From Actinomadura sp. DC4 (GTDB taxonomy: Bacteria; Actinomycetota; Actinomycetes; Streptosporangiales; Streptosporangiaceae): a stretch of 64,000 nt of DNA. Each line of letters starts with the position of its first letter. The stretch's first letter is position 1. Location: the NCBI RefSeq assembly GCF_030406325.1, contig NZ_JAUEQY010000003.1, positions 248,001 to 312,000 on the forward strand. The letters run 5' to 3'. Of this stretch, positions 38,137 to 58,629 are shown piece by piece. A program made the position numbers and the translations under genes. The notes beneath the pieces were generated by a model that made no database searches, had not been told where the DNA came from, and saw only the letters and a program-made list of their open reading frames with translations.

Positions 38137-38144
38137 TGTGCTGC

Positions 38145-40454: not shown

Positions 40455-43448
40455 GTGCAATCAAAGGACCGTCGAGTGGGATCAGATGTCAGTGAGCGGC
40501 CGTCTCGGTTCCAGGCCGGCCGCGTATTCCGGTCAGTTCGATTCAAGATCATCCTGCTGCTGATCGTGCCTCTCGTGTCACTGAGCACGTTGTGGGCCTT
40601 CGCAGCGAATATCACCTTGGGTGACGGCCTCAACCTGCGGCACGTGAACACCATCCAGGACCATCTCGGATATCCGTCCGGAGCGCTGGGCAGCGCTCTG
40701 GAACAGGAACGCCGGTTGTCCTTGGTGTTCCTCGGCAGCAAGGCCGAAGGCGACCGGGCCGCAATGGAATCGGGGCGTCTCGTCACCGACCGGCAGGCGG
40801 AGCAGTTCCGTCGCCTGGCCGTCGACAAAGACGCGCAGAACGTCATCAGTCCCCAAGCGCGGGACTGGACCAAGGAGATCCTGCAGTACCTGGACAGCCT
40901 GCCGGCCAGACGCCGCCAGGTCGACGGCGCGTCCGTCACCCGGGCGCAGGTCTTCACCCGGTACACGACCACGATCTCCACGATCAACCAGCTGCAGGCC
41001 TCGCTGGCGACACTGAGCGACCCCGAGGTCACCAAGGACGCCAGCACACAGGTCGCCCTGGCCCGTGCCCGCGAGGTGCTGTCACAGGAGGACGCGCTGC
41101 TGTCCGGCGCGCTCGCCGCCGGTCAGCTCACCTTCCCCGAGCACGTGCAGTTCACCAAGCTCGTCGGCACCCAGCGCAACCTGTACGCCGACCTGCTGCC
41201 GGACCTGCGCCCCGACGACCGTGCCCTCTACCAGAGGATCACGAGCACGCCGGAGTACACCCGGCTCCAGTCGCTGGAGAACCGCTTCACCGACAACATG
41301 CCGGCGCCGAAACGGCCGGCGGGCATGGGCACGACCACGCAGACGCCGACGGCCGGGATGCCGGTCGGCGCCAAGATCACGCCGAGCACCCAGGCCGAGT
41401 GGCACACCACGGTCTCCTCGGTGCTCACGAGGTTCCGTGGCCTGGAGCTGGTCTCGACCTCGGCCGCCAACGACCGGTCGAAGCCGATCTCGAACGGCAT
41501 CATCCTGCGCGTGGTCCTGGCCGGCGCCCTCGGCCTGGTCGCGGTCATCGCGTCGCTGATCCTGTCGCTGTGGGTCGGCCGCTCGGTCATCCGCGAGCTG
41601 ACCGGGCTGCGGCGCGCCGCGCTCGACCTGGCCAATGAGAAGCTGCCCGGCGTCATCCGGCGGCTGCGCCGTGGTGAGGACGTCGACGTGGCGGCCGAGG
41701 CGCCGCCGCTGTCGTTCAGCACCCGCGAGATCGACCAGGTCGGCCAGGCATTCAACGCCGCCCGCCGCACCGCCATCCAGGGCGCGGTCGAGGAGGCGAC
41801 GCTGCGCCGCAGCATCAGCGAGGTCTTCCTCAACCTGGCGCGCCGCAACCAGGCGCTGCTGCACCGGCAGCTGGCCCTGCTCGACGCCATGGAGCGGCGG
41901 ATCTCCGAGCCGGAGGAACTGGACGACCTCTTCCGCCTCGACCACCTCGCCACCCGCATGCGCCGTCACGCGGAAGGCCTGATCATCCTCTCCGGGCAGG
42001 CGCCCGGACGAGGCTGGCGCAACCCGGTCCCGGCCGTCGACGTCGGCCGCGCCGCCGCGGCCGAGGTCGAGGACTACGCACGGGTCACGGTCACGACGAT
42101 GCCGCGGGTCGCCATCTCCGGTCCCGCGGTCGCCGACCTCATCCACCTGCTCGCCGAGCTGATCGAGAACGCCACGCTCTACTCCCCGCCGGACACGACC
42201 GTTCAGGTCACCGGCCAGGTCGTCGCGCACGGCTTCGCGATCGAGGTGGAGGACCGCGGTCTGAGCATGGACCCGGCCTCGCTGGCGCAGGCCAACGAGA
42301 AACTGGCCCGGCCGCCGGACTTCGACCTGTCCAACAGCGCGCAGCTCGGACTGTTCGTCGTCGGCCGGCTGGCCCAGCGGCACTCCATCCAGGTCACGCT
42401 CCGCACGTCGCCGTACGGCGGGACGACCGCGATCGTACTGCTGCCCGACTCGATCGTGGTCCGTACCGACCAGGCCGAGCTGGGCGACTCCGGTCGCCTC
42501 GCGGTGACCCGCCGGGGCGAGGACGCTCTCGTGCCGATCGGCGCGATCGGGCCGCCCTCCTCCTACGACAACCGCAACAACACCGGGCCGATGCCGCTGG
42601 CGCCCGGTGGCGGCGAGCGCCCGCCGCTCCCCCAGCGGCACAACGAGGTCGCGCCCGCCGCGTACGAGCCTCCGCCGGGCCCGCCACTGGGTCCGCCGCC
42701 TGGTTCTCCGCAGGGTCCGGCGCCGCAGGGTCCGGCGCACTACGGCACCGGCGCACTTCCGGTGCCGTACGACACCGGACAGTTCGACGCGCCGTCGTAC
42801 GACACGGGCCCGCGCCGGTACGACGCGCCGCCGCCGAGCCCCTACGAGGCGAACCCTTACGAGGCCGGTCCTTACGAGGCGAACCCGCACGAGGCCGGCC
42901 CGGCGTACGGGAGCGGGTACGACCCGACGCCGTACGAGACCAACGCGTTCGGGTCGGGTGAACCGGCCTACCAGGACCCGGGCCCCGCCTCCGGACAGTT
43001 CGGCGCGGGCGACGGCGGGTACGACGCGGGGCCCGACACCGGGCACTGGTCGCTTCCGCCCGCCGGTGAGGCCGGACGCCCGCCTCTGCCACGCCGCAGC
43101 GCCGGCGAGCAGATGCCGGGCATCCCGACCGGGGACGTGCCGGTGGGCGGCCGCTCCGTGTTCGAGCCGGTCGAGGAGTCCGACGAGCAGGCGCCGGCGT
43201 ACGAGCAGGAGACCCCTGCGCCCGCCCCGGAGAACGGCGCGGGCAAGCCCTCACTGCCCCGTCGCGTGCGCCAGGCGAGTCTGGCACCACAGCTTCGCGA
43301 CGAGGTCGAACCGGTCAGTGACACCGCGAGCGGTGAGCGTTCGCCCGACGAGCTCCGCACGATGCTGAGCTCCATCCAGAAGGGTTGGCTGCGCGGTCGC
43401 TCGGACGCCGAGGAGACCACGACCGACCACGAAGAGGAGGACATCTGA
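40455..43448 (+). CDS. cvnA: Conservon sensor histidine kinase-like protein with nitrate/nitrite-sensing domain (CvnA-like)
   Basis: A 997-residue CvnA protein. Membrane helix 1 (IILLLIVPLVSLSTLWAFA, residues about 32-50), an extracellular NIT-type sensor (LGSALEQERRLSLVFLGSK is the family start) to about 345, helix 2 (about 350-375), then a HAMP linker, the FLNLARRNQALLHRQLALLDAMERR helix and HATPase with ELIENATLYSPPDT. Residues 690-990 are a disordered Pro/Tyr/Gly tail. GTG at 40455 is used; a GTG at 40476 is equally possible. It ends in ATGA-like overlap with the roadblock gene. Confidence 0.9.
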   Translation: MQSKDRRVGSDVSERPSRFQAGRVFRSVRFKIILLLIVPLVSLSTLWAFAANITLGDGLNLRHVNTIQDHLGYPSGALGSALEQERRLSLVFLGSKAEGDRAAMESGRLVTDRQAEQFRRLAVDKDAQNVISPQARDWTKEILQYLDSLPARRRQVDGASVTRAQVFTRYTTTISTINQLQASLATLSDPEVTKDASTQVALARAREVLSQEDALLSGALAAGQLTFPEHVQFTKLVGTQRNLYADLLPDLRPDDRALYQRITSTPEYTRLQSLENRFTDNMPAPKRPAGMGTTTQTPTAGMPVGAKITPSTQAEWHTTVSSVLTRFRGLELVSTSAANDRSKPISNGIILRVVLAGALGLVAVIASLILSLWVGRSVIRELTGLRRAALDLANEKLPGVIRRLRRGEDVDVAAEAPPLSFSTREIDQVGQAFNAARRTAIQGAVEEATLRRSISEVFLNLARRNQALLHRQLALLDAMERRISEPEELDDLFRLDHLATRMRRHAEGLIILSGQAPGRGWRNPVPAVDVGRAAAAEVEDYARVTVTTMPRVAISGPAVADLIHLLAELIENATLYSPPDTTVQVTGQVVAHGFAIEVEDRGLSMDPASLAQANEKLARPPDFDLSNSAQLGLFVVGRLAQRHSIQVTLRTSPYGGTTAIVLLPDSIVVRTDQAELGDSGRLAVTRRGEDALVPIGAIGPPSSYDNRNNTGPMPLAPGGGERPPLPQRHNEVAPAAYEPPPGPPLGPPPGSPQGPAPQGPAHYGTGALPVPYDTGQFDAPSYDTGPRRYDAPPPSPYEANPYEAGPYEANPHEAGPAYGSGYDPTPYETNAFGSGEPAYQDPGPASGQFGAGDGGYDAGPDTGHWSLPPAGEAGRPPLPRRSAGEQMPGIPTGDVPVGGRSVFEPVEESDEQAPAYEQETPAPAPENGAGKPSLPRRVRQASLAPQLRDEVEPVSDTASGERSPDELRTMLSSIQKGWLRGRSDAEETTTDHEEEDI

Positions 43449-43852
43449 TGTCAGCGGGTTCTGCGGGGGAACTCAACTGGCTGCTGGACAGTCTCGTCAA
43501 GCAGGTCGCCCAGGTGCACCAGGCGGTCGTGCTGTCGAGCGACGGGCTACTGGTCGGCGCCTCCACGGGGCTCACCCGTGAGAACGCCGAGCACCTGTCC
43601 GCGGTAGCCGCCAGCTTCCAGAGCCTCGCGCGCAGCGCGGGGCGTCAGTTCGGCGGCGGCGCGGTACGCCAGACCATCGTCGAGATGGACCATGCCTTCC
43701 TGTTCGTGACCGCCGCCGGGTCGGGCGCGTGTCTCGCCGTCCTGGCCGGGTCCGACGCGGACGTGGGCCTCATCGCGTACGAGATGGCGATGCTGGTCAA
43801 GCGGGTGGGGCAGCACATGTCCACCCTTCCTCGCTCGGCCGTGGAATCGTGA
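43448..43852 (+). CDS. cvnB: Conservon roadblock/LC7 protein (CvnB-like)
   Basis: A 134-residue roadblock/LC7 protein beginning AGELNWLLDSLVKQVAQVHQAVVLSSDGLLVGAS, with the conserved HLSAVAASFQSLARSAGRQFGGG segment. Its ATG shares bases with the kinase stop (TGATG). It is expected to dimerise and pair with the GTPase encoded downstream. Confidence 0.95.
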   Translation: MSAGSAGELNWLLDSLVKQVAQVHQAVVLSSDGLLVGASTGLTRENAEHLSAVAASFQSLARSAGRQFGGGAVRQTIVEMDHAFLFVTAAGSGACLAVLAGSDADVGLIAYEMAMLVKRVGQHMSTLPRSAVES

Positions 43853-43963
43853 CGCGGGATGAGCCAGGGGAACGGTCACACCTATGCGCTGAGGTCCTCA
43901 CACAGACGGGCGGAGGCGGCTTCTCCGGCCCCGCAGTGCGAAGCCTTCAGGCGAGGCAGTTGA

Positions 43964-44326
43964 ATGAGCGAATGGCTCGACGACGAGGCGGGGCCGGTTG
44001 TCCGGCCCTACGCGCTGACGCGAGGTCGCACCCGCTCGTCCCGGGAGGGTTTCGAGCTGATCGCGATCATCGCGACGGCCGCGACCTCGACGTTCGCACC
44101 CGCCGGGGCGGGCCCGGAGCATCTCGCGATCCTGGAGATGTGCGTCCGGCCGCTCTCGGTGGCGGAGGTGTCCGCGAAAATGAGGCTCCCCCTGGGCGTC
44201 GTCCGGGTGCTTCTCGGTGATCTACTCGAATACGGCTTGATCGCTGTACGGCGGCCCGAGCCGGACAACCGTCTTCCCAATGAACGGCTTTTGAAGGAAG
44301 TGCTTAATGGACTCCAAGCGCTCTGA
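43964..44326 (+). CDS. cvnC: Conservon DUF742 protein (CvnC-like)
   Basis: A 120-residue DUF742 protein: GPVVRPYALTRGRTR and the winged-helix-like core (RPLSVAEVSAKMRLPLGVVRVLLGDLL). It begins 111 bases after the roadblock gene and overlaps the GTPase gene by 20 bases, the same overlap length as in the other conservon of this window. Confidence 0.95.
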   Translation: MSEWLDDEAGPVVRPYALTRGRTRSSREGFELIAIIATAATSTFAPAGAGPEHLAILEMCVRPLSVAEVSAKMRLPLGVVRVLLGDLLEYGLIAVRRPEPDNRLPNERLLKEVLNGLQAL

Positions 44327-44921
44327 CCCCTCCCGGGGCGCTGCGATGCCGCTCGCCGTGAAGATTCTCGTGGCGGGTGGATTCGGTGTCGGCAAGACGA
44401 GCATGGTCGGCGCGGTCAGCGAGATCAAGCCGTTGCGGACCGAGGAACAGCTCACCGATCGCAGCGTTGGCGTCGACGACGTCTCTGGCGTCGAGCGCAA
44501 GACCACCACGACCGTGGCGATGGACTTCGGCCGTATCACCATCCGGGACGGCCTGGTCCTCTACCTGTTCGGCACACCCGGCCAGGACCGCTTCTGGTTC
44601 ATGTGGGACGAACTCGCGCTCGGCGCGCTGGGCGCGGTCGTGCTGGCCGACACCCGTCGGCTGGCCGACTGCTTCCCCTCGATCGACTACTTCGAGCGCC
44701 GGCGGCTCCCGTTCATCATCGGGGTCAACTGCTTCGACGGCGCGCTGAGGTATGACTCCGAGGAGATCCGTGCCGCCCTCGACCTGGACCCGAAGATCCC
44801 GGTCATCCTGTGCGACGTGCGTAAGCGCGAGTCGGGCAAGCAGGTGCTGATCACGCTGGTGGAGCACGTGCTGGCCGTGATGGCCGAACGGCAGCGCCAG
44901 CCCGGCGCGGCCGTCCGCTAG
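44307..44921 (+). CDS. cvnD: Conservon small GTPase (CvnD-like)
   Basis: A 204-residue Ras-like GTPase. G1 GGFGVGKTS, G3 FGTPGQDRF and G4 NCFD are present. It resembles the other conservon GTPase of the window closely but is more canonical. ATG at 44307 lies inside the DUF742 gene. It completes a kinase-roadblock-DUF742-GTPase set; no cytochrome P450 (CvnE) gene follows. Confidence 0.95.
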   Translation: MDSKRSDPSRGAAMPLAVKILVAGGFGVGKTSMVGAVSEIKPLRTEEQLTDRSVGVDDVSGVERKTTTTVAMDFGRITIRDGLVLYLFGTPGQDRFWFMWDELALGALGAVVLADTRRLADCFPSIDYFERRRLPFIIGVNCFDGALRYDSEEIRAALDLDPKIPVILCDVRKRESGKQVLITLVEHVLAVMAERQRQPGAAVR

Positions 44922-44925
44922 GCGC

Positions 44926-45858
44926 ATGGCCGGCGATCGGCCCGGATGGTCGGGCGTCGTCCACGGATCCTGGGGCGATCTCGCCAGGATCCGGGCGCTG
45001 CTCGACGCCGGAGCCGACCCCGACGGCCCGGTCTGGGACGACGAGCGGCCGTTACACGTCGCGGCCGAGGAAGGTTCCCCCGAGGTCGTCGCCGAACTCG
45101 CCGGGCGCGTGACCGACGTCGACGCCGTGAACCGGGGCCGCACCGCGCTCTGGAACGCCGTCTACCACCGCCGCCCGGACAACGTGCGCGCCCTGCTGGC
45201 TGCCGGCGCGGACCCGTGGCGGCCGATGATGGCGGGCTGGTCGCCCGGACGGCTCGCCCTCGCGAGCCCCGGCCTGTTCACTCTGCCCGGAAACGAGGCC
45301 GCGCTGTCCGGGGAGGAGGCGGCCATGGCCGCCGCCGCTCCGCGGCTGACCGAGATCTTCGCCGATCACCTCGACGGCCTGGGCCTGGCGTGCGTCGCGG
45401 GCATCGGGGCGGCCGAGGCGGTACGGCGGTTGGACGCCACGCCATTCGCCGTCACCGAGGCCGGTCCCTGCCACGAGCCGCCGCGGCCGGACGACGACCT
45501 GAAGATCGTCGGCGCCACCGACGTGCCGGGCGGCTGCGTCATCACCCAGCCCTGGGGGTACGCCCCGCAGCTGTCCGAGGTCATGGCCCCGCTGTCGGCG
45601 GGCACCTTCGCCTACGGGCTCTACGTCAACCCCAAGAGCGGAAGCCAGGGCTGCGTCTTCCGCGACGGCGCGTGCGAGAAGTGGGACCTGCACCCGGGAG
45701 GCGACCCGTTCCCCGACGCGACGGCCCGCGAGGTCCTGGCCGGCCACCTGACGTCGGGCAACGCCGTCGCGTACACCCTCGCCTACGCCGGCCTGCGCCC
45801 GCCCGACGGCCGCGCCGTCCAGGGCCCGCCGGACCTCTGGCTGAGACTGCCCCGCTGA
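44926..45858 (+). CDS. Ankyrin-repeat protein with DUF6461-like C-terminal domain
   Basis: A 310-residue protein. Residues about 10-100 form three ankyrin repeats (WGDLARIRALLDAGADPDGP, DERPLHVAAEEGSPEVVAELA, RTALWNAVYHRRPDNVRALLAAGADP). The C-terminal half (GGCVITQPWGYAPQ, YGLYVNPKSGSQG, KWDLHPGGDPFPDATAREVLAGHL, AYAGLRPPDGRAVQGPPDLWLRLP) resembles DUF6461, often found in immunity-like proteins of actinobacteria. It starts four bases after the GTPase stop, so may be co-transcribed with the conservon. Function is unknown. Confidence 0.7.
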   Translation: MAGDRPGWSGVVHGSWGDLARIRALLDAGADPDGPVWDDERPLHVAAEEGSPEVVAELAGRVTDVDAVNRGRTALWNAVYHRRPDNVRALLAAGADPWRPMMAGWSPGRLALASPGLFTLPGNEAALSGEEAAMAAAAPRLTEIFADHLDGLGLACVAGIGAAEAVRRLDATPFAVTEAGPCHEPPRPDDDLKIVGATDVPGGCVITQPWGYAPQLSEVMAPLSAGTFAYGLYVNPKSGSQGCVFRDGACEKWDLHPGGDPFPDATAREVLAGHLTSGNAVAYTLAYAGLRPPDGRAVQGPPDLWLRLPR

Positions 45859-47355: not shown

Positions 47356-47508
47356 GGGTGGATCTGGAAGTCAACGGTCTGTCAAGCCCGGTGGACGAGT
47401 TATTCCACTTGGACCAAGCGAAGTTCGGATAAGGCTGGTGTCCGCATCCGGGCATGGACACAATGGGGAGTGGCGAGTTCGCTCACTCAGAGTTATGGTG
47501 CGAGATCC

Positions 47509-48075
47509 ATGCCCGATGACCCCTCTTCCCCCAAAGACGGGACCGAGTCCCCGTCGGCCACGGCCGATGGGGTCATCGCGGCATCTCTCGAACGAATACA
47601 CAGTGTGCTGGCCGACCTTACCCAGGCGGCCGGCCGCGAGCACGACCGGGCCACGCACCGTGAGCGCGTCATCGACCGGCTGCACGAGGAGAACCAGCGG
47701 CTGCGGCACAACGAGCTGCAGGCCGCCTTCGAGCCGGTGCGCACATCGCTCTACCGCCTTTACGACCTGGTCCGGCGTGAGTCGGAGCGGGACGAGGCGG
47801 ATCCAGCACACGTACCCAAGCTCCTGGCGGCGATCGCCGACGAGCTGGCCGAGATCATCGCACGCACGGGGGTCGAACGCATGCCCGTAGACGAGGGCGA
47901 TCCGTTCGACCCGGCGAGGCACCGCCCCGCCGGCACCTGCGATGTGGACGACGCGGAGCTCCACGGCACCGTCGTGACGGTCCAGCGCGCCGGATTCGTC
48001 CGTGGCGAGAAGGTCGTACGACGGGCCGAGGTGATCGTCGCCCGGGTGGCGGCCGACCCGGTCGGAGGGGATTGA
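47509..48075 (+). CDS. GrpE-like nucleotide-exchange factor of the Hsp70/GTPase cluster
   Basis: About 188 residues. A Ser/Asp/Pro leader is followed by a coiled coil (REHDRATHRERVIDRLHEENQRLRHNELQ) and a GrpE-like beta wing (DDAELHGTVVTVQRAGFVRGEKVVRRAEVIVAR). It is shorter and more divergent than housekeeping GrpE. The ATG at 47509 lacks a strong ribosome site and a GTG at 47470 is an alternative. The stop is one base from the Hsp70 ATG, so it is the dedicated exchange factor of the next gene. Confidence 0.75.
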   Translation: MPDDPSSPKDGTESPSATADGVIAASLERIHSVLADLTQAAGREHDRATHRERVIDRLHEENQRLRHNELQAAFEPVRTSLYRLYDLVRRESERDEADPAHVPKLLAAIADELAEIIARTGVERMPVDEGDPFDPARHRPAGTCDVDDAELHGTVVTVQRAGFVRGEKVVRRAEVIVARVAADPVGGD

Positions 48076-48076
48076 C

Positions 48077-49660
48077 ATGACTGTCTACGGAATCGATCTG
48101 GGCACGACGCACTCGTGCATAGCGCGCATCGGCGAGGTCGGCCGGCCCACCGTCCTGCGCAACATGGAGGGCACCGACACCACGCCCTCCGTCGTCTATT
48201 TCGAGACCGGCGACAACGTCGTCGTCGGCGCCCCGGCCAAGGACACCGCGGTGCTCTCCCCCGACCTGGTGGTGAGCCTGATCAAGCGCGACATGGGGCA
48301 CGAGGTGACGCGCGAGCTGCACGGGCGCGACTACTCCCCCGAGGAGATCTCCGCGTTCGTCCTGCGCAAGCTGGTCTCCGACGCGACGGCCACCACCGGC
48401 GAGGAGGCCGGCGACGTCGTCATCACCGTCCCCGCCTACTTCGGCGCGGCCGAGCGCGACGCGACCCGCAAGGCCGGCCACATCGCCGGGCTCAACGTCA
48501 TCGACATCATCTCCGAGCCGGTCGCCGCGGCGATCACCTACGGCGTGCTCAACCCCGACCAGGACCGCACCATCTTGGTCTACGACCTGGGCGGCGGCAC
48601 CTTCGACACGACCGTGATCACCCTGCGCGACGGCGACATCGGCGTCGTGTGCACCGACGGCGACCACGAGCTCGGCGGCGCCGACTGGGACTCCCGCCTG
48701 GTCGAATACCTCGCCGAGCGCTTCGCCGACGAGCACCCCGACGTCGGCGACCCGCTCGAGGACCGGCACACCGAGCAGCAGCTCCGGCACGACGCGGAGG
48801 AGGCCAAGAAGGCCCTGTCGCTGCGCACGCAGCACGTCGTCCGCGTCATGCACGAGGGCCGGGTGGCCACGATCGAGCTGAGCCGCGACAAGTTCGAGGA
48901 GATCACCAAGGACCTGCTCGACCGCACGATCGAGATCACCGGCCGCACGCTCGCCACGGCCGCGGAGAAGGGCGTCGGCGACTACGACGACCTGGTGCTC
49001 GTCGGCGGCTCGACCAAGATGCCGGCGGTGCCGCAGCGGCTGTCCAACGAGCTGTCGCTCAAGCCGAGGCTGCAGGACCCCGACCTCGCGGTCGCCAAGG
49101 GCGCGGCGCTGTACGCCTTCGAGGAGACCTACCGCCAGCTCCTGGCCAAGGGCGAGACCGAGAAGGCGCTCGACCTGGCCGCCCGCGCCGGCCTGTCCGA
49201 GGCCGAGCAGGAGCGCATGGCGGCCCGCCAGATCACGACGGTCGCCTCCCGCGCCTTCGGCGTGATCGCCCTGGACCCGGTGACCGAGCAGGAGCACGTC
49301 GTCCACCTCGTCCACGCCAACGACGCGCTGCCGCGCGGCAAGTCCCGCGAGTTCGGCACGGTCGACGAGGACCAGACGATCGTCAAGATCATCGTGGTCG
49401 AGCAGGCCGGCAGCGCCGAGTCGACCGAGGTCGCGCACAACAACCCGATCGCGGACGGCGAGCTGAAGATCCCGCCCGGCAAACCGGCGGGCTATCCGAT
49501 CGAGGTGACGTTCGCGCTCGACACGTCCGGTCTGCTGCACGTGACCGCGATCGAGAAGGAGACCGCCGAAGAGCTCACCCTCGACGTGCGCGTCGGAGGC
49601 ATGTCGGAGGACGACGTCCAGGACTCCCGTACGGACCTGGCCCACGTCCGCGTGGACTGA
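48077..49660 (+). CDS. Hsp70/DnaK-like chaperone lacking the alpha-helical lid
   Basis: A 527-residue Hsp70. The ATPase domain is complete: phosphate 1 (GIDLGTTHSCIA, residues 5-16), phosphate 2 (YDLGGGTFDTTV, 169-180) and adenosine motif (VGGSTKMPAV, about 309-318). A beta substrate-binding domain follows (TVASRAFGVIALD ... IPPGKPAGYPIEVTFALDTSGLLHVTAIEKETAEELTL), but the last 100 residues that form the lid in DnaK are absent. It would bind client peptides loosely. GGGGA lies just before the ATG. Second gene of the cluster. Confidence 0.9.
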   Translation: MTVYGIDLGTTHSCIARIGEVGRPTVLRNMEGTDTTPSVVYFETGDNVVVGAPAKDTAVLSPDLVVSLIKRDMGHEVTRELHGRDYSPEEISAFVLRKLVSDATATTGEEAGDVVITVPAYFGAAERDATRKAGHIAGLNVIDIISEPVAAAITYGVLNPDQDRTILVYDLGGGTFDTTVITLRDGDIGVVCTDGDHELGGADWDSRLVEYLAERFADEHPDVGDPLEDRHTEQQLRHDAEEAKKALSLRTQHVVRVMHEGRVATIELSRDKFEEITKDLLDRTIEITGRTLATAAEKGVGDYDDLVLVGGSTKMPAVPQRLSNELSLKPRLQDPDLAVAKGAALYAFEETYRQLLAKGETEKALDLAARAGLSEAEQERMAARQITTVASRAFGVIALDPVTEQEHVVHLVHANDALPRGKSREFGTVDEDQTIVKIIVVEQAGSAESTEVAHNNPIADGELKIPPGKPAGYPIEVTFALDTSGLLHVTAIEKETAEELTLDVRVGGMSEDDVQDSRTDLAHVRVD

Positions 49661-49680
49661 GGGGATCAGCTCGTACGAAC

Positions 49681-52212
49681 ATGGTCTTCGACGAACAGCG
49701 TTACGTCCGCGAGGTGCTGGACCCCGCCCGGGTCGCCGGCAACCAGCCGCCCGACGATCTGCGTGTCCGCTATGCCCTGATCGAGCCGCTCAACTCACGC
49801 GAGGTGGCGGACAGCGTCAAGCAGGTGCGGATGTGCTGGCGCAAGTCGCGCGGGCAGCTCCGCTTCCGCCGGCTCATCGACCGGCTGGAGGGCGACCACC
49901 TGAGGCTCGCGCCGCTGTTCGAGCGGGCCGTGCTGGGCGACCTCGCGCCGCTGCGCGCCGAGCTGACCACCACGACGGAGAAGGCCGGCCGCCGGCGCGA
50001 CGAGCTCCGTCACCGCCTGCTCGACGCCGCGGGCGAGATGCGGATGCTGGCGCCGGGCGACCTGCGCGAGATCGGCGGTGAGGCCGCGGAGCTGGCGCGC
50101 GAGGCGGGCATCGAGATCCGCGAGCCCGACGCGCTGCCGTCCACGCCGCCCTACCCCGCCTACCCGCGCGCCCGTGACGCGCTCGACGCCCTCGGTTCGC
50201 GGCACCTGCGGGAGTTCGTCACCGGGGAGCCGCGCGCCGGCCGGGTGCTCAGCGCGACGCTCGACCTGCGGCCGGCGATCCGGCAGGTCGGCGAGCAGTG
50301 GAGCCGCCGGCCGCACGACGGCAACCGCACCAACGCCGACACCGTGCTGATCGCGCTCAAGCGGGTCGGCGACCGGCTCGGTGAGCTGATCCTGTTCGAC
50401 GTGGCGGAGCGGCTGCGCGAGCGCCACCAGCAGCGGGCCTCGGAGGGCGCGCTGCTGCGGTTCGCCGCCGACGACCTGGGCGTGGACGACGGCGACGCGC
50501 GGCGGCTCGTCTTCGCGGTGCTGCGCGAGAGCGGGCCGCCGGGCGGCCTCGCCGCGCGGCTGCGGGCCCTGATCGACGGCGGTGAGATCCACGCCGCCGC
50601 CGAGCTGGCCGGCGCGGCCGGCCCGGCCGAGCTGACCGGCGACGCGGAGATCCTGGCCGCCGAGGCTAAACGCCGCATCTCGGCCGCCACCGCCCTGCGG
50701 CAGGAGGCCTCCACACTCGTTCTGACCGATCCCGACGCGGCGTGGCTGCGGCTCGCCGACGCGCTGCGGCTCGTCGGCGACCTGCCCGGCGCCGCCGACG
50801 TGCAGGCCGGGCTGCCGCCCCGCACGCCCGGCCGGCTGGAGGCGACCGTCGAGGACGGGGAGGTGGCGCTGTCGTGGCCGCCGACGCCGTCGCGGGTCGG
50901 GGAGATCGGCTACATCGTCACCCGCTGCCTCGGGCGGACCCCCCGCCACCCCGGCGACGGCGAGGCCCTGCGCTGCGGCGACGCCTTCGCCCGCGACACG
51001 GCCCCGCCGCTGAACGCCCCGCTCTTCTACGCGGTGTTCGCGGTGCGCGGCACCGCGGCCTCGCCCGCCTCGGCCGCCGGCCCGCTGCACGTACGCCCCG
51101 AGCCCTCCGAGCTGTTCCTGCGCGCCGCCGACGGCGTGGTCGCGGCCCACTGGACCTGCCCGCCGGAGGCCGTACGCGTCCTGGTCACGCGCGACGGCAC
51201 GCCGATCCCGTCCGAGCGAAACGCCTTCCGCGACGAGACGGTCCGCAACGGCACGACGTACCACTACCGCATCGCCGCCGCCTACCTCGGCGCCGACGGC
51301 CACGAGACCATCACCGACGGCGTGCACGCGGCGGCGACGCCGGCCGCCCGGCCCGACCCGGTCGGCGACCTCAGCGTCGAGCAGGACCCGGCCGGGCACC
51401 TCGTCGTCACCTATGACGAGCCCCGGCACGGCCAGGTGGAGATGCTCGCGATGAGCGGCCCGCCCCCGTGGCCGGCCGGCACGACGCTCGCGGTCGAGGA
51501 GGTGCACCGGGCCGGGCGCGTCCTGCACACGGCCCCGGTGCCCGGCGGCGTCGCGCTGCGGACCGGCCCCGGCGTGCTGCTCGCGGTGTCGGTCAGCGGC
51601 GACGTCGCCACGATCGGCGCGCACCGCGAGCACGTCAACCTCACGCCGCCGCGCGAGCTGGTCACCCAGCGGCGCGGCGAGGTGGTCGTGCTGGGCTTCG
51701 ACTGGCCCGCCGAGGTCACCGAGGCCGAGATCAGCTGGCGGTGCGGCGACGGCGACACGCTCCGGATGCCGGTCGGCCGGGCCGGCTACGACGCGCACGG
51801 CGGCGTACGCCTCGCGGCGCCCGGCGGCGAGACGGTGACGGTCGAGGTGGCCGCCGCCGCGACCGCGTACGGCCGCCGGGTCACCGGCACACCGGTCACG
51901 GTCGTGGTGCCCGGCCGGACGATCGTCGGGTACGAGCTCCGGCGGTCGCGGCTGCGGGGCCCGCTCGTCGTCTCGCTGTCCGCCCCGGCGCCCGCGCGGC
52001 TGGGGCGCCTCGTGCTGGTCGCGCGGTCCGGCCCGATGCCGCAGCGCGTCGCCGACGGCGAGACCGTGATGAGCTGGGAGGACCTCGAACTCCCCGTACG
52101 CCTGCAGGCCGCGATGCCGCGGCTGCCCCGGCCGTTCTGGCTACGCTGCTTCGCCGAAGACGCGACAATCGAGCTGCGCGACCCCCCGGTCCGCCACCTG
52201 AAGGTGGGCTGA
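49681..52212 (+). CDS. Large Hsp70-associated protein with helical N-terminus and FN3-like beta domains
   Basis: An 843-residue protein of unknown family. Residues 1-370 are helical (YVREVLDPARVAGNQPPDDLRVRYAL ... ALLRFAADDLGVDDGDARRLVFAVLRESG), with a possible J-domain-like start but no HPD motif. From about 380 to the end come at least three fibronectin III-like beta sandwiches (PGRLEATVEDGEVALSWPPT, FLRAADGVVAAHWTCPPEAVRV, VGDLSVEQDPAGHLVVTYDEP) and more beta repeats. There is no signal peptide. ATG at 49681 starts 20 bases after the Hsp70 stop. It may be the client-recognition or scaffold component. Confidence 0.7.
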   Translation: MVFDEQRYVREVLDPARVAGNQPPDDLRVRYALIEPLNSREVADSVKQVRMCWRKSRGQLRFRRLIDRLEGDHLRLAPLFERAVLGDLAPLRAELTTTTEKAGRRRDELRHRLLDAAGEMRMLAPGDLREIGGEAAELAREAGIEIREPDALPSTPPYPAYPRARDALDALGSRHLREFVTGEPRAGRVLSATLDLRPAIRQVGEQWSRRPHDGNRTNADTVLIALKRVGDRLGELILFDVAERLRERHQQRASEGALLRFAADDLGVDDGDARRLVFAVLRESGPPGGLAARLRALIDGGEIHAAAELAGAAGPAELTGDAEILAAEAKRRISAATALRQEASTLVLTDPDAAWLRLADALRLVGDLPGAADVQAGLPPRTPGRLEATVEDGEVALSWPPTPSRVGEIGYIVTRCLGRTPRHPGDGEALRCGDAFARDTAPPLNAPLFYAVFAVRGTAASPASAAGPLHVRPEPSELFLRAADGVVAAHWTCPPEAVRVLVTRDGTPIPSERNAFRDETVRNGTTYHYRIAAAYLGADGHETITDGVHAAATPAARPDPVGDLSVEQDPAGHLVVTYDEPRHGQVEMLAMSGPPPWPAGTTLAVEEVHRAGRVLHTAPVPGGVALRTGPGVLLAVSVSGDVATIGAHREHVNLTPPRELVTQRRGEVVVLGFDWPAEVTEAEISWRCGDGDTLRMPVGRAGYDAHGGVRLAAPGGETVTVEVAAAATAYGRRVTGTPVTVVVPGRTIVGYELRRSRLRGPLVVSLSAPAPARLGRLVLVARSGPMPQRVADGETVMSWEDLELPVRLQAAMPRLPRPFWLRCFAEDATIELRDPPVRHLKVG

Positions 52213-53396
52213 TGGCCTCCATCACCTGTCCCTACTGCTTCGCGCGCCTGGCCCGCGAGCGGATCGCCTTCCGCTGCGCGGGCAGCCCCGGGCGCGGGCC
52301 CGGCTGCGCGCCGCGCCTGGATGACAAGCTCGCCGCCTACACCGGCTCGGCCGCGGCGGCCTCGCTGCCGCCGGTCTTCGCCGCGCCCGACGCCGGGCGT
52401 CGGCTGGGGCGAAACGTGGGGCGAAACGTGGGGTGGACCGTGGGGCGAAACATGGTGCGCCGCGCGGCCTGCCCCGAGTGCGGGCAGGACACCGCCCGGC
52501 GCGTGTGCCCCGAGTGCCACAACCCACTGCCGGGGGCGTACTGCGAGACGCCCGGCAAGATCGTGGCGCTGGTCGGGGCGAAGAACTCCGGCAAGAGCAC
52601 CTACATCGCGGTGCTGCTGCACGAGCTGTCGCACCGCATCGGCGCCGAGCTGGGCACCGCCCTGGTCGCCTGCGACGACCGTACGATCGAGCGCTACAAG
52701 CGCGACTTCCACCGGCCCCTGTTCGGCGACCGCCGGCTGCTGCCCGCCACCGCCAGCGCGGTGACCACCCCGCGCGACCCGCTGGTGTACCTCCTCACCC
52801 GCACCCGGCGCCGTCGCATGCGGCAGCAGGACATGTCACTGACGCTGGTGCTGTTCGACACCGCGGGCGAGGACCTGCGCAGCCGCGACGTGACCGACCT
52901 GCACCTGCGTTACCTCGCGGCGGCCGACGCGATCATCTTCCTGGTCGACCCGCTGGAGCTGAAGGCGGGCGGCGGCGACCCGGACGGCGAGCCGATCAAC
53001 GTCATCGCCCGCGTCACCGAGCTCCTGCACGTCGGCCGGGACCTCCCGCACGGGCGGCGGCTCCCGGTGCCGGCCGCGGTCGCCCTCACCAAGATCGACG
53101 CGTTGCCGCTCGACGGCGCGCTGCAGCAGGACCGCACTCCCGTGGCCGCCCTCGACCTGGGCGACCGGGAGGCGGTGCAGGAGCAGGTACGCGCGCTGCT
53201 GTACGACTGGCAGGCCGGTGAGCTGGACCGTTATCTGAGCCACGAGTACGCCGAGTACGGCCTGTTCGGGGTGTCGGCGCTCGGCGGCGTGCCGCGCGAG
53301 GGCGCGGTCGGCACGGGCGGCATCCGCCCCTACCGCGTCGAGGATCCGCTGCTGTGGCTGCTGCACCAGTTCGGGATGCTCGACGGAGTCCGCTGA
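52212..53396 (+). CDS. Zinc-ribbon GTPase (DO-GTPase1-like)
   Basis: A 394-residue protein. It begins with a zinc ribbon (CPYC at 6-9 with further Cys near 22 and 31) and has two more pairs, CPECGQDTARRVCPEC. A TRAFAC-like GTPase follows: P-loop GAKNSGKS at 122-129, DTAGED at 216-221 and TKID at 293-296. The linker between ribbons carries a tandem repeat (RNVGRNVGWTVGRN). TGATG overlap with the previous gene. It would act as a GTP-driven switch regulated by the GAP1-like partner. Confidence 0.85.
   Translation: MASITCPYCFARLARERIAFRCAGSPGRGPGCAPRLDDKLAAYTGSAAAASLPPVFAAPDAGRRLGRNVGRNVGWTVGRNMVRRAACPECGQDTARRVCPECHNPLPGAYCETPGKIVALVGAKNSGKSTYIAVLLHELSHRIGAELGTALVACDDRTIERYKRDFHRPLFGDRRLLPATASAVTTPRDPLVYLLTRTRRRRMRQQDMSLTLVLFDTAGEDLRSRDVTDLHLRYLAAADAIIFLVDPLELKAGGGDPDGEPINVIARVTELLHVGRDLPHGRRLPVPAAVALTKIDALPLDGALQQDRTPVAALDLGDREAVQEQVRALLYDWQAGELDRYLSHEYAEYGLFGVSALGGVPREGAVGTGGIRPYRVEDPLLWLLHQFGMLDGVR
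52405..52452 (+). repeat. Four-unit 12-bp tandem repeat inside the zinc-ribbon GTPase gene
   Basis: Four 12-base units in phase with the reading frame: TGGGGCGAAACG, the same again, TGGGGTGGACCG and TGGGGCGAAACA. They add four-residue steps to the linker between two zinc ribbons. Such repeats can expand or contract without a frameshift. Confidence 0.85.
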
Positions 53397-55540
53397 TGGC
53401 GTGGGACCTGCGGTACACCTCGGCCGAGACCGGCCCGACCGGCCGGTCGGGGTTCCAGTTCGTCGCCACCACCCCCGGCACACCGCCGGAGGTCACCCTG
53501 GCCGTCACGCCCTACATGACCTACCGGCCACCGCCGTCCGCGCCGTCCGCGCCCGGCCCGGCGGAGCTCTCCCGCTTCCCGATCTCACTCGCCTACGGGC
53601 GGGAGGGCGACCACGCCGTCCTGGTCCGCTGCCGCTACACCGGCCGTGACTACTCCGGCCGCTACGGCAACTTCGCCGGGCACGCCGTCGTGGCGGCCCC
53701 GCAGGAGATGGAGGGACTGCGGCCGATCGAGCTGTGGGAGTCGCCGGTGTGGTCCGGCCCGGCGGGCGGCGCGCCTGACCTGGTGCCCGGAGAGGCGTTC
53801 GACCCCGACTCGCTGGTGGCCTGGCTCGCCCGCGAGGACGCGTACGCCCGGCTCGCCGCGCTGCTGGACGCCGTGACGGCCGCGCTCGCCGAAGGGCACG
53901 GCCGGGTGGTGCTGGTGGCCGGGGACGCCGGGCTCATCGCCCGGTGGATCGCGCTGCTGTCCTACTCCCTGCCCGCCGGTCTGGCGGCGCACCTGTCGTT
54001 CACCACCTACACCGCCGACCCGGAGTCCGCGCCGCAGCTCGTGGTGGGCACGGTGCCGGACGCCTGGCCGGGCCGCGGCTTCCGCCTCGACGAGCCCCAC
54101 GCCGGCGCCGAGCCCGGCCGCTTCGCCGGTGTGCTCGCCGACTGCTGGCGCACCGGCGACCTGGACGCCATCGACGCCGTCGGCGAGCTCCTCACCTCCG
54201 GGGCCGGCGACCGGCCGGACGGCGGCGCGCTGACGGCGGCGGACGGCGCGGCGGCGCTACTGGCGCTCTGCCGGGGTGACGCCTCCGTCTCCGCTGCGGA
54301 GGAGTCGGCCGCGGCGGGCCTCGTACGGCGCGGAGGGGCGCCCGGCTGGGTCTGGCCCGCGCTGGCGCCCGCGCTGCCCGGCCTGGGATTCGACCTCGCC
54401 ACCGCCCTCGCGGACGTCGCACCGCAGATCGCCGAGCACTGCGTGGCGCTCGCGCTCGCCGATCCGGCGCTGCGGCCGGACCTGCCGGCGTTCCGGCTGG
54501 ACGACGGGCTGCCGGAGCGGTTCCGCGCCGCCGTGGCCGCCGCGCCCGGGCTCGACGCGCTGGCCGAGACCGTACGCCTCGCCGACCAGGTGGGCGGCGT
54601 CCTGGAGACCGCGGCGGTGACGGCCTCCGCCGCGGCATGCGCGCGGCGCGGCGACGGTGACGTCGCCGCGGCCCTGCGCGCCACGCCCGGCGCCTGGCGG
54701 GCGGCCGTGGTCTCCGGCGTGCTCGCCGGTCTGGAGGCGGCCGAGCCCGCGACCCGCCGGGCCATGCTCACCCCCGAGGCGTGCGACGCGCTCGGCGAGC
54801 ACGACTGGACGCGCGCGCCGCGTACCGGCGGGCTCGTGCTGTCCGCGCGCGGCGACCGGCACGAGGCCACCGCCGGGCTGGTCGATCTGGCGCCGTACGG
54901 CCTGCCCGAGATCGACGAGCTCCTCGCCGCGCTCTGGGACGCCCCGCCGACCCCGGGCGACTGCGCCCGGCTGATCGGGCGGCTCGGGCCCGCGATGGCG
55001 CGGTTCGCGACGCTGCGGCGGCTGCCGCGGCGGGTCTTCGAGGCCGCGCCGCTGGAGGCCGAGGAGACCGTACGCCTCGCCGAGCTGGTCCGCGACCGGC
55101 TGCCCGAGCTGGCCGGGCCCGCCCGGATCGTACTCGGCCGCGAGGAGGCGCTGCGCGCCGAGCGCGAGCACGACGTGGCCCGCGTCCTGGCCCGGATGGA
55201 CTCGGCCGACCCGCTGACCGGCCGGGTGTGCGCGAGCGTGGCCGGCGCGCTCGCGGAGCGCTCCGCGCGGTCGCGCGCCGCGATCCTGGCGGCCTCCCCC
55301 GACACCGTACGCGCCGACCTGACCGGGCACTGGCTCGACGCCGGCGGCGACCGCATGAGCCGGGTCGACCTCGCCGAGATCGAGGTGCGCCTGCACCGGG
55401 CGCACGCGCCGGTGTCCCGGCTCACCGCGTGGGGGGACGGGCTCGGGCGGTTCGCGCGGCGGCACGTCGAGTCCGCGCTCACCGACCGCGACCCGCAGCT
55501 CGCCTCCGCGTGGCGGGCGCTGCGCCGGCGGGGGGCGTGA
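53396..55540 (+). CDS. GTPase-associated protein 1-like (GAP1) regulator
   Basis: A 714-residue protein. The N-terminal domain (LRYTSAETGPTGRSGFQFVATTPG ... GRYGNFAGHAVVA, residues 1-110) matches what I remember as GAP1-N2, then a middle domain with the block HGRVVLVAGDAGLIARWIALLSYSLPAGLAAHLSFTTYTADPESAPQLVVG (GAP1-M), and a long alpha-helical C-terminal solenoid (GAP1-C). There are no catalytic motifs of its own. GAP1 proteins are predicted partners of double-GTPases. TGATG overlap with the preceding GTPase gene. Confidence 0.75.
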   Translation: MAWDLRYTSAETGPTGRSGFQFVATTPGTPPEVTLAVTPYMTYRPPPSAPSAPGPAELSRFPISLAYGREGDHAVLVRCRYTGRDYSGRYGNFAGHAVVAAPQEMEGLRPIELWESPVWSGPAGGAPDLVPGEAFDPDSLVAWLAREDAYARLAALLDAVTAALAEGHGRVVLVAGDAGLIARWIALLSYSLPAGLAAHLSFTTYTADPESAPQLVVGTVPDAWPGRGFRLDEPHAGAEPGRFAGVLADCWRTGDLDAIDAVGELLTSGAGDRPDGGALTAADGAAALLALCRGDASVSAAEESAAAGLVRRGGAPGWVWPALAPALPGLGFDLATALADVAPQIAEHCVALALADPALRPDLPAFRLDDGLPERFRAAVAAAPGLDALAETVRLADQVGGVLETAAVTASAAACARRGDGDVAAALRATPGAWRAAVVSGVLAGLEAAEPATRRAMLTPEACDALGEHDWTRAPRTGGLVLSARGDRHEATAGLVDLAPYGLPEIDELLAALWDAPPTPGDCARLIGRLGPAMARFATLRRLPRRVFEAAPLEAEETVRLAELVRDRLPELAGPARIVLGREEALRAEREHDVARVLARMDSADPLTGRVCASVAGALAERSARSRAAILAASPDTVRADLTGHWLDAGGDRMSRVDLAEIEVRLHRAHAPVSRLTAWGDGLGRFARRHVESALTDRDPQLASAWRALRRRGA

Positions 55541-55544
55541 GGCC

Positions 55545-57248
55545 GTGCCCTTCGTCTACGTGCTCGTCGCCATCTTGTGGGTCGGCCTGGTCCTGGCCGA
55601 GTTCGTCTTCGTGGTGCCGCTGGCGCTCGCGCTCGCGCTGCTGGCCGGGTTCGGTCTCGGGCTCGGCCGCTTCTTCCAGACCGCGTGGCGCACCCTCCTG
55701 ACCACCGACGCCGCCGGGCCCTCCCCCGTGCCGCGCCCGGCGCCCGGCCCGCCCGACGCCGCGTACCCGCACTATCTGCTCTTCCAGGTGTGGCGTGACG
55801 TACGGAGTCTCGAAGGCCGCACCCTGCCCTGGTGCGTGGCCCAGGTCCGCTGGGCGATCGGCACGCTGACCGAGACGCTGCTGCCGGTCCCCCAGGGCCT
55901 CGCGCTGTTCCCGCTGTGGTTCGGGCTGTGCGCCGGCGTCGTGCTCGCGGCGGTGCCGCTCGCCGTGGCGGCGCTGGCGTTCGGCGCGGCGATGCTCCTG
56001 ATGGTCGTCCCGGGGCTGGTCGTGTGGTCGGCCTGCGTCATCGTCCTCGGCGCGGTCGAGCGCGTCTGGATGGGGTACCGCCGCATCCTGCTCGCCTGCC
56101 CGCATCCCGGCTGCTACCAGCGGTTCGCGCTGCCGGAGTACGCCTGCCCGAACTGCGAGGAGCGGCACGCGCGGCTCGTTCCGGGCCGTCTCGGCGCCTT
56201 CCGGCACGTGTGCCGCTGCGGCACCCGGCTGCCCACGACGATCCTGCTCGGCCGGTTCCGGCTCGGCGCGTACTGCCCGCACTGCCGGCGGCGGCTGCCC
56301 GGCCGGATCGGGCGCGCGCGCGTCGAGCCGCTGCCGTTCGTCGGCGGGCCGGCGGCCGGCAAGACGACACTGATGTTCCTGGCCGTACGGGCGCTGCGCG
56401 CGAGCGCCGCCGGGGCGCAGGGCCGGGCGGAGTTCGTGGAGGCACGGGACGCACGGGCGTACGCGGGCGCGGTGGCCGAGCTCGACCGCGGCGAGCGGCT
56501 CGCCAAGACCGGCCCCGAGCTGCCCGTCGCCACCATGCTCGACCTGAACCTCCCGGCCGCGCACCGCATCCTGTACCTCTTCGACCCGGCCGGCGAGCTG
56601 CACACCGGCGCGACCCAGGTCGAACGGCTGCGCTATCTCGACCACGGCGAGGCGCTGTTGTTCGTCATCGACCCGTTCGCGCTGCCCGAACTGCGGCTCG
56701 CGCTGTCCACGGACGAGCGCCGGTTGGCGGCGGACGCCGCCGCCTCCTCCGACGAGGATCCCTCCGACACGCTCCAGCGGCTGCTGACCGAGCTGCGGTC
56801 CCGCGATGACCAGGGGCGGCAGCGGCGCATCGCGGTGGTCGTCACCAAGGCCGACGTGCTGCGGCGCACCTCGGTCGGCGGCGGCCTCGACGGCGACGCC
56901 CGCGGCTGGCTCGAGGGCCTGGGCCTCGGCAACACCATCCGCACGCTGGAGCGCACCGCGGGCGAGGTCCGCTACTTCGCGTCGGGCCTGGACAGCCCGC
57001 CCGCCGCGCTGGCCGAGCTGTTCGGCTGGGCCGCCGGGCTGCCGCTGGGCGGCCGGGCCGACCCGGCGTTCGACGACCGGCCGACCAGCGACGAGATGCG
57101 CGAGCCGTGGCCGGTCGCCGGCCGCCCGGCCGGGCAGATCCCGTACGGGCACCAGGCCGGCCGCGGCGCGCTGCTCGCCGCCCTCGTCCTCCTCGGCCCG
57201 GTGATCATGGTGGTGCTCGGCTTGTCCCTCTACGCACGATTCCACTGA
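55545..57248 (+). CDS. Membrane-anchored zinc-ribbon GTPase (DO-GTPase2-like)
   Basis: A 567-residue protein with an N-terminal membrane helix pair (about 4-45), another pair (about 118-172), a zinc-ribbon cluster (CPHPGC, CPNC, CRCG, CPHC, about 185-255) and then a GTPase: P-loop GGPAAGKT at 267-274, DPAGE at 347-351 and TKAD at 434-437. A last membrane helix (GALLAALVLLGPVIMVVLGLSL) closes the protein. It would be the membrane arm of the double-GTPase system. GTG at 55545, five bases after the previous stop. Confidence 0.8.
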   Translation: MPFVYVLVAILWVGLVLAEFVFVVPLALALALLAGFGLGLGRFFQTAWRTLLTTDAAGPSPVPRPAPGPPDAAYPHYLLFQVWRDVRSLEGRTLPWCVAQVRWAIGTLTETLLPVPQGLALFPLWFGLCAGVVLAAVPLAVAALAFGAAMLLMVVPGLVVWSACVIVLGAVERVWMGYRRILLACPHPGCYQRFALPEYACPNCEERHARLVPGRLGAFRHVCRCGTRLPTTILLGRFRLGAYCPHCRRRLPGRIGRARVEPLPFVGGPAAGKTTLMFLAVRALRASAAGAQGRAEFVEARDARAYAGAVAELDRGERLAKTGPELPVATMLDLNLPAAHRILYLFDPAGELHTGATQVERLRYLDHGEALLFVIDPFALPELRLALSTDERRLAADAAASSDEDPSDTLQRLLTELRSRDDQGRQRRIAVVVTKADVLRRTSVGGGLDGDARGWLEGLGLGNTIRTLERTAGEVRYFASGLDSPPAALAELFGWAAGLPLGGRADPAFDDRPTSDEMREPWPVAGRPAGQIPYGHQAGRGALLAALVLLGPVIMVVLGLSLYARFH

Positions 57249-58240: not shown

Positions 58241-58629
58241 CCAACCTCACTCGCGGCATGCTCCGGCCGGTCGCTCTTTGTAGTGATCTGTTGCCCTTTG
58301 GTAATTGTCCGCCCTGGCGTTACCACGAGCCGCCGAATGTCCCGCAAAGCGGTCGACTCGGCCTTCTTGGGCTCCTTGCCCGAAGTCGTCGCGGCGCTAC
58401 GCTGTGCGCCGGACGCCGCCCCTCTCCATCGTGAGCGGCATCACATTTCCGCAGGTGAGAGTGGTCATTTCGGCTTTGGATACGGCACCCCGGCGGGGCT
58501 TGGTTACACTGGGTAAGTAGTTCGCTCCATACTTTCCCCTCCGAACGCGTTGCCGTTCTCGCGAAACTTCCGATACATTGCGCCGTAATCGGCCTGTGAC
58601 TTACCTCCACCCGGGAGGTGACAGACCGA
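58241..58629. other. Non-coding leader/promoter region of the CHAP gene
   Basis: About 390 bases with no gene. It includes a less GC-rich piece around 58490-58600 (TTGGTTACACTGGGTAAGT) that may hold the promoter for the riboswitch leader. No other structure was recognised. Confidence 0.4.

Follow-up and report, generated by a model that had tools for sequence, protein, structure and literature searches.

Why would an operon of GTPase genes carry an Hsp70 and a GrpE of its own? The question is raised by six genes in a 64-kb stretch of the Actinomadura sp. DC4 genome (contig NZ_JAUEQY010000003.1; this whole stretch of 64,000 nucleotides is called the window below, and coordinates given without a locus handle are positions in it). 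At 47509-57248 the window codes for a GrpE-like protein, a lid-less Hsp70, a FN3-like protein of 843 amino acids (aa), a soluble and a membrane GTPase of the DO-GTPase2 family, and a GAP1 protein. The answer that we favor, to which we give an even chance, is that these genes form a double-GTPase system of the GAP1-N2 type that follows the HSP70/GrpE theme and is vertically inherited as a fixed operon within its clade, and whose sequences point to a membrane-anchored ATP/GTP switch worked without DnaJ. The gene set as such was predicted in 2020; what we add is its apparent vertical inheritance, the replacement of J-docking residues in the Hsp70, a predicted box for BldD in Actinoallomurus, and a CHAT protein in the second copy of the system.

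The replacements that set this Hsp70 apart were found by aligning 74 sequences (the window protein and 73 others) to E. coli DnaK, whose residue numbering is used here. D8, T11, K70, E171, D194, the glycines at 196-198, T199 and D201 are invariant in 74/74 sequences, as expected from the original prediction that the Hsp70 motifs are intact, and judging by these residues the protein should still hydrolyse ATP. At the positions of J-protein docking and of the linker, the replacements R167D, N170S, N147G and D393T occur in all 74 sequences, and D148 is never an aspartate, with A, V or I standing in its place. Counted as alignment cells that match canonical DnaK, the ATPase positions reach 100%, the whole nucleotide-binding domain (NBD) 51%, and the seven J/linker positions 0%. 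Passages in three papers (PMC7289447, PMC8215388, PMC13012618) describe the aspartate of the J-domain HPD motif as acting on R167, a residue paired with both D393 and D481, and report that altering R167, D393 or D481 disrupts allostery and leaves J-protein stimulation ineffective.

The control was the set of three ordinary DnaKs in this genome, and in each of them R167, N170, D148 and D393 are intact (3/3). These three adjoin grpE and dnaJ genes, and on the operon contig the nearest J-domain match is about 256 kb off. R167 or D393 is kept in none of seven more distant Hsp70s of the theme, which carry other letters there, and in none of 26 further Hsp70 rows from close and distant members (rows that overlap the genomes of the 74 in at least L174, L181, L182 and L183). 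An 890-aa open reading frame (ORF) in L155 that has no NBD motifs was excluded from this count.

The length of the protein hardly varies, at 527-539 aa in 73/73 complete genes. In the window protein the NBD (residues ~3-347) is followed by a net insertion of about 25 residues ahead of the linker and by the beta part of the substrate-binding domain (SBD-beta, ~408-519), where the match to DnaK terminates; over the lid positions 509-605 of SBD-alpha, 86% of the cells are gaps, which agrees with the lid-less protein first described from the window. Six peptide-pocket positions match canonical DnaK in 54% of the cells, and the protein may hold extended peptides. To this extent the suggestion that the Hsp70 senses misfolded protein survives, with the replaced J-coupling residues speaking against it.

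No J-domain was detected by Pfam in the six window proteins. The FN3-like protein gave no DnaJ match at E 1 in the window and none at E 0.5 in five homologs, and its best match to TPR, found in homolog L049, was not significant (E 0.23). A J-domain suspected by eye at its N-terminus was rejected, since 69 N-terminal segments compared by HHalign with a small set of four J-domains scored 9.9, against a median of 9.5 and a maximum of 16.3 for 60 column shuffles. Other segments of the protein scored 7.4-14.2 against J-domains, and an HPD triplet is found anywhere in the protein in 3/73 cases.

These sequences would fit a scheme in which the soluble DO-GTPase and its transmembrane counterpart together form a GTP switch at the membrane, GAP1 is the partner of both, and the FN3-like protein serves as an adaptor. 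The lid-less Hsp70 would be an ATP-driven switch that is not worked by DnaJ-type proteins. Because the arginine for J-docking and the aspartate of the linker have been replaced, a partner encoded in the operon would have to trigger or replace the J-protein step, and the dedicated GrpE would reset the Hsp70. The gene set, its motifs and conservation, the residue replacements and the co-inheritance are observed; the complex, the direction of its signalling, its trigger and any output are what we infer here.

Is the operon a stable unit? A contig scan with the soluble GTPase found 252 relatives, of which the best 80, all from named genomes, were kept; this sample leans to close kin, and five of the genomes behind L034-L040 recur as L059-L063. 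All 80 loci hold part or all of the block. The six genes have the same order and strand in 70/80, and the remaining 10 blocks are truncated by a contig end; the order is not a matter of chance, and the genes travel together, as had been anticipated. Median gaps between the operon genes across loci are 3-14 nucleotides. GAP1-N2 is present in 8/8 Actinoallomurus genomes, the window genome being counted among them here and in what follows, in 152/341 genomes of the family, and in 8/396 drawn from the phylum. Corynebacterium glutamicum was the sole one of 14 control genomes with matches to both DO-GTPase2 and GAP1-N2. Five GAP1-N2 loci from one genus of the family, g47 (L166, L168, L169, L170 and L193), have the FN3 protein, both GTPases and GAP1, with no tblastn match to Hsp70 or GrpE in the fetched stretch; they are perhaps a natural version without the chaperone.

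We built trees of the six proteins from 67 of 68 complete loci and the window (68 taxa), leaving out L112, in which GrpE was read as 24 aa, and keeping four other loci with a FN3 read of odd length. Any pair of trees has 20-32 supported splits in common and 0-6 in conflict. Six of the seven genera tested form clades in every tree (Actinoallomurus, Sphaerisporangium, Herbidospora, Acrocarpospora, Actinocorallia and Thermomonospora), with support below 0.9 for Sphaerisporangium in the GrpE tree; Actinomadura is a clade in none. Among six Actinoallomurus sequences the median omega is 0.13 for Hsp70 and for the soluble GTPase, 0.29 for FN3, 0.30 for the membrane GTPase, 0.39 for GrpE and 0.47 for GAP1, the fastest evolving of the six, and the highest pairwise value is 0.53. 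The GAP1 genes of L062 and L102 end early, and for L062 only the first part of the gene was used for omega. In L038 (the same genome as L062) GAP1 is spread over two overlapping frames, and in L049 the gene for the soluble GTPase likewise occupies two; these breaks are either draft errors or real.

The flanks are shared as well. The downstream ADH gene is common to 6/7 other Actinoallomurus loci, and the remaining one is truncated by its contig end; an upstream ACT-domain family is found at 38/46 Actinomadura, 2/2 Thermomonospora and 2/2 Actinocorallia loci, and a GlnE family at 6/8 Sphaerisporangium, 5/6 Herbidospora and 1/1 Planobispora loci. Because the trees agree, six of seven genera form clades and selection is purifying, the operon looks like a vertically inherited unit that moved in the deeper past, and not like a hypervariable weapon; the sharing of flanks within groups of genera strengthens this picture.

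Inspection of the ORFs in the window bears out the layout from which the analysis set out, with six genes on one strand separated, in order, by 1, 20, -1, -1 and 4 bases. The single base lies between GrpE and Hsp70, the 20 bases precede the FN3-like gene and the 4 bases the membrane GTPase gene, and the two TGATG overlaps are at 52210-52214 and 53394-53398. The features are collected in Table 1.

Table 1. Features of the six-gene operon and its upstream box in the 64-kb window.
Feature	Position	Strand	Basis
Predicted BldD box TCACTCAGAGTTA	47483..47495	+	13 bases upstream of GrpE ATG; consensus match
GrpE-like nucleotide exchange factor, 188 aa	47509..48075	+	Pfam GrpE 3e-13; PDB GrpE 3a6m 1.9e-7
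Lid-less Hsp70, 527 aa	48077..49660	+	Pfam HSP70 8.3e-106; alignment to solved DnaK chains
FN3-like protein, 843 aa	49681..52212	+	Conserved N-terminal region (helical by eye); FN3-like C-terminal half
Soluble DO-GTPase2, 394 aa	52212..53396	+	Pfam DO-GTPase2 3.4e-9; N-terminal cysteine pairs (zinc ribbons)
GAP1, 714 aa	53396..55540	+	Pfam GAP1-N2 3.2e-36, GAP1-M 1.4e-23; diverged C-terminal region
Membrane DO-GTPase2, 567 aa	55545..57248	+	Pfam DO-GTPase2 2.5e-20; cysteine pairs, then GTPase domain 262-492

The earlier family assignments of GrpE, Hsp70, the two GTPases and GAP1 were all recovered by Pfam profiles. With these matches and the recurring gene order, neither outcome that would have overturned the original prediction occurred. 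Both DO-GTPase2 matches exceed the Pfam cut-off, and GAP1 was recognized through its N2 and M domains; the GAP1-C profile found no match in the window protein, although about 480 aa follow the M domain. Comparison of the GTPases, GAP1 and the FN3 protein with NCBIfam yielded no informative family, and a weak NCBIfam match to blaPenN was taken as spurious. The GrpE scores were obtained with a 201-aa version that begins at an in-frame GTG at 47470. Since four of seven relatives from the genus align from residue 13-15 of that version (one aligns from residue 1, and two only from residue 36-39), the ATG at 47509 is the likely start.

The motifs of both GTPases also proved intact. The soluble protein of the window has the P-loop GAKNSGKST, DTAGED and TKID; its relatives retain the P-loop pattern in 80/80, D-x-AG-x-D in 80/80 and [TS]K-x-D in 78/80 cases, and eight cysteines are invariant among 16 sequences. 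Relatives of the membrane GTPase have the P-loop pattern and [TS]K-x-D in 72/72 cases each, and a G3-like pattern in only 52/72. A DO-GTPase domain is recognized by a P-loop, a Walker B motif with a glutamate and a motif for GTP specificity, and the two window proteins conform to this. The cysteine pairs of the membrane GTPase were seen in the window protein only, and its hydrophobic stretches at 1-44, 115-176 and 538-566 would, by hydropathy, give room for 4+1 helices.

The least certain assignment is that of the 843-aa protein, a relative of which is present at 80/80 loci. The window protein is without a Pfam match above cut-off, fn3 included; its putative FN3-like character rests on homolog L049, with fn3 at E 1.1e-4 (22.7 bits, under Pfam's 25), and on weak PDB profile matches to DUF3472 proteins (E 0.019-0.020) and fibronectin (E 0.19). 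In the other homologs fn3 scored 0.06-0.07 (L042 and L033) or was not found (L055 and L043).

How might the operon be controlled? The upstream regions of six Actinoallomurus sequences have in common a 20-base block starting with TCACTCAGAGTTA, which fits both published consensuses of the BldD box, TNAC-N5-GTNA (PMC4151990) and nTnACnC(A/T)GnGTnAn (PMC7374567). The full consensus is exact upstream of the operon in 7/8 Actinoallomurus genomes and the TNAC-N5-GTNA core is intact in 8/8, one base of the consensus differing in the eighth (L035). The window holds two full matches where 0.16 are expected, and 1.54 Mb of related loci hold eight, six of which are upstream of the operon in five Actinoallomurus loci. 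The genome also codes for a BldD-like_C protein. The predicted box suggests a tie between the operon and the developmental program in Actinoallomurus.

A second palindrome resembling a BldD box, TTACACTGGGTAA, is found past the downstream ADH gene (58504-58516) and is kept in two other members of the genus (L037:4580; L039:3090). A heat-shock operator of the HspR/HAIR type was sought and not found upstream, the one match with three mismatches in the window being at 9255 (0.73 expected). Actinomadura loci, such as L073 upstream of GrpE, show by eye a conserved block ending in TTAAGGTnACnGCAC right before a GTG start, perhaps a leaderless promoter of a type unlike that of Actinoallomurus.

A more specific version of the scheme can be put forward tentatively, as a possibility well short of even odds. 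The Hsp70, with a GrpE of its own, would have been freed from J-proteins, one of its partners (the FN3 protein, GAP1 or a DO-GTPase) would act as its trigger, and its ATP cycle would be coupled to the GTP switch at the membrane; the whole would, in this clade, be a device of developmental or envelope control, placed under BldD in Actinoallomurus, and not a weapon.

The genome holds a second GAP1-N2 locus (L033, contig C88), with the same six genes in the same order at 29-50% identity. It differs from the window operon in having an extra Hsp70, a GAP1 that matches the GAP1-C profile (2.9e-35), and a CHAT domain (2e-36) at the C-terminus of a 1446-aa protein, whose gene (L033:2594-6934) is flanked by those for the membrane GTPase and the extra Hsp70. 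Next to this locus (L142, contig C88, ~349-352 kb) we noted two overlapping genes, one for a 401-aa protein with a J-domain match and no HPD (L142:2910-4115) and one for a 506-aa Hsp70 in which R167 and D393 are both present (L142:1393-2913), with a partial GrpE match near by. Across the genome we counted eight clear Hsp70 loci (four of them within 44 kb of one contig), six J-domain matches and six GrpE matches.

Around the operon and its relatives, ten recurring flanking families were profiled: ACT, class II aldolase, PfkB, MFS, ADP-ribosylglycohydrolase, AMP-binding, nitroreductase, GlnE, a PASTA protein and a trypsin-like/PDZ protease. Metabolic genes are the commonest neighbors. The protease gene (for example L138:18456-19538) lies outside the operon, a median of about 3 kb downstream at the 18/69 loci where it was counted within 6 kb; no match to it was found in the five Actinoallomurus loci searched. 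Two of the ten families match PADLOC models at E 1e-5, the protease (RT-Protease_XI) and the PASTA protein (PD-T4-6 5.1e-8), both of which we read as matches over shared domains and not as defence genes. One of seven flanking window proteins scanned with PADLOC also matches, a 365-aa ORF on the minus strand 9 kb from the operon (37081-38178; mad3 1.2e-32, mad8 1.5e-12). At 40455-44921, 2.6 kb upstream of the operon, a NIT-domain histidine kinase comes first, with small ORFs and an ATP_bind_1 GTPase behind it, in a cluster that resembles a conservon, and after it comes an ankyrin-repeat ORF (44926-45858).

The original prediction had related the GTPases and GAP1 to the conflict systems of Kaur, Burroughs, Iyer, Aravind and colleagues. 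This link is confirmed in passages of Kaur et al. 2020 (PMC7159879, section 29), where the complete combination of HSP70, GrpE, FNIII, DO-GTPases and GAP1-N2 is described; as a "second theme" with HSP70 and GrpE it makes up ~14% of GAP1-N2 neighborhoods, mostly in actinobacteria and firmicutes. The window operon resembles that theme in its GAP1-N2, zinc-ribbon GTPase, second GTPase with transmembrane segments, FNIII-like protein, HSP70, GrpE and actinobacterial host. It differs in a FNIII-like protein that gives no J-domain match and no significant TPR match, in the missing GAP1-C match and in having no effector gene inside the operon, and the relatives that we sampled differ in their fixed order and vertical inheritance. 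With the DnaK-GrpE-DnaJ machine the operon has in common an actin-fold ATPase with intact catalytic residues, SBD-beta and a GrpE partner, but the J-docking arginine and the linker aspartate are replaced, about 25 residues are inserted, and the lid and a dnaJ gene are missing. The tubulin-theme systems described in the same source (PMC7159879) have GTPases, GAP1-N2 and FNIII proteins too, with tubulin where HSP70 and GrpE are found here; the tubulin signature GGGTG[ST]G was absent from 40 loci scanned. Our search of the open-licence literature found no experimental study of GAP1/DO-GTPase systems.

Several results tell against a conserved, J-independent switch with a developmental role. Some of the replaced residues carry little weight: D481S (73/74) and K414A (71/74) say little because the genome's ordinary DnaKs lose both too, carrying N and R there, and Q378 and D326 look replaced under an assignment that shifts with the alignment. 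At the interface with GrpE, taken from passages of PMC10825016, loops IA and IB match in 52% and 56% of cells, near the NBD average, but the IIB beta-hairpin that contacts GrpE is short and diverged (23% match, 22% gaps), and given this hairpin the pairing of Hsp70 with GrpE is putative. As passages of PMC7159879 describe the theme's FNIII protein as typically carrying a DnaJ or TPR fusion, J-independence may be a local trait. The full BldD box was found upstream at 0/68 loci outside Actinoallomurus, which rules it out as a clade-wide rule and as an account of the system in the other genera (the looser core occurs at 10/68 of these loci, against 19/1460 random stretches and 37/1460 shuffles). 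The flanks, steady within groups of genera, differ between the groups; therefore the operon moved in the deeper past. Finally, candidate effectors do occur. The trypsin-like/PDZ protease family, found at 26/46 Actinomadura loci, is one such candidate, and since the sister version of the system has a CHAT effector the conflict reading stays alive, with the window operon carrying none inside.

It is possible, if rather doubtful, that the operon is an anti-invader system as proposed by Kaur et al., in which GAP1 and FN3 would sense the invader, the GTPases would set a threshold, and spread in the mycelium would be limited by the membrane GTPase itself or by an effector from another locus. That account is a published inference from effector-bearing relatives, and the passages of PMC7159879 that put it forward list trypsin among the components of some of these systems. 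It gains from the 1446-aa CHAT protein of the second locus and from CHAT relatives at 12/146 loci (eight in more distant relatives within the theme and four in the clade to which the window belongs, where two represent one Acrocarpospora genome), but a CHAT match lies within the fetched flank at only 2/80 named-genome loci, both from Acrocarpospora. The protease matches RT-Protease_XI of PADLOC at 2.7e-15 over its protease part only, and the six operon proteins have no PADLOC match below E 0.01. GAP1 does evolve fastest of the six and GAP1-N2 is concentrated in the family far beyond its share of the phylum, but its presence in every Actinoallomurus genome, the low ceiling of omega there, and recurring flanks of which 8/10 families are metabolic, transport or similar tell against an anti-invader role. 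Stable neighbors, trees that follow the hosts and purifying selection have thus weakened the conflict-system part of the original prediction, and the protease and CHAT proteins near some copies keep a part of it standing.

Could the GrpE/Hsp70 pair merely fold or assemble the FN3, GTPase and GAP1 proteins of its own operon? The tight operon, the matching trees and the partly kept peptide pocket would suit such a private chaperone, but the loss of the lid and of the J-coupling residues should impair a folding cycle, and with three full dnaK-grpE-dnaJ sets in the same genome we consider this improbable. Least probable of all, and only a slim chance, is that the Hsp70 is an ATP-driven assembly protein that builds a scaffold in place of the tubulin of the sister systems and does not act on clients: passages of PMC7159879 list tubulin and HSP70 as alternative themes, both suggested to form multimers, and the usual J coupling is lost, but SBD-beta is present, the length is nearly fixed and GrpE is retained.

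If the operon is indeed a double-GTPase system with a J-independent Hsp70, it offers a six-gene version, fixed in the genomes of the lineage, that has no effector inside the operon to complicate assays. It also leads to a sharp biochemical prediction, namely that ATPase activity should be on, J-coupling off and the response to GrpE on, and it presents BldD as a candidate regulator in one genus. Such an operon would hold an Hsp70 whose J-protein step has passed to another partner, and it would cast doubt on the view that every member of this class is a conflict system.

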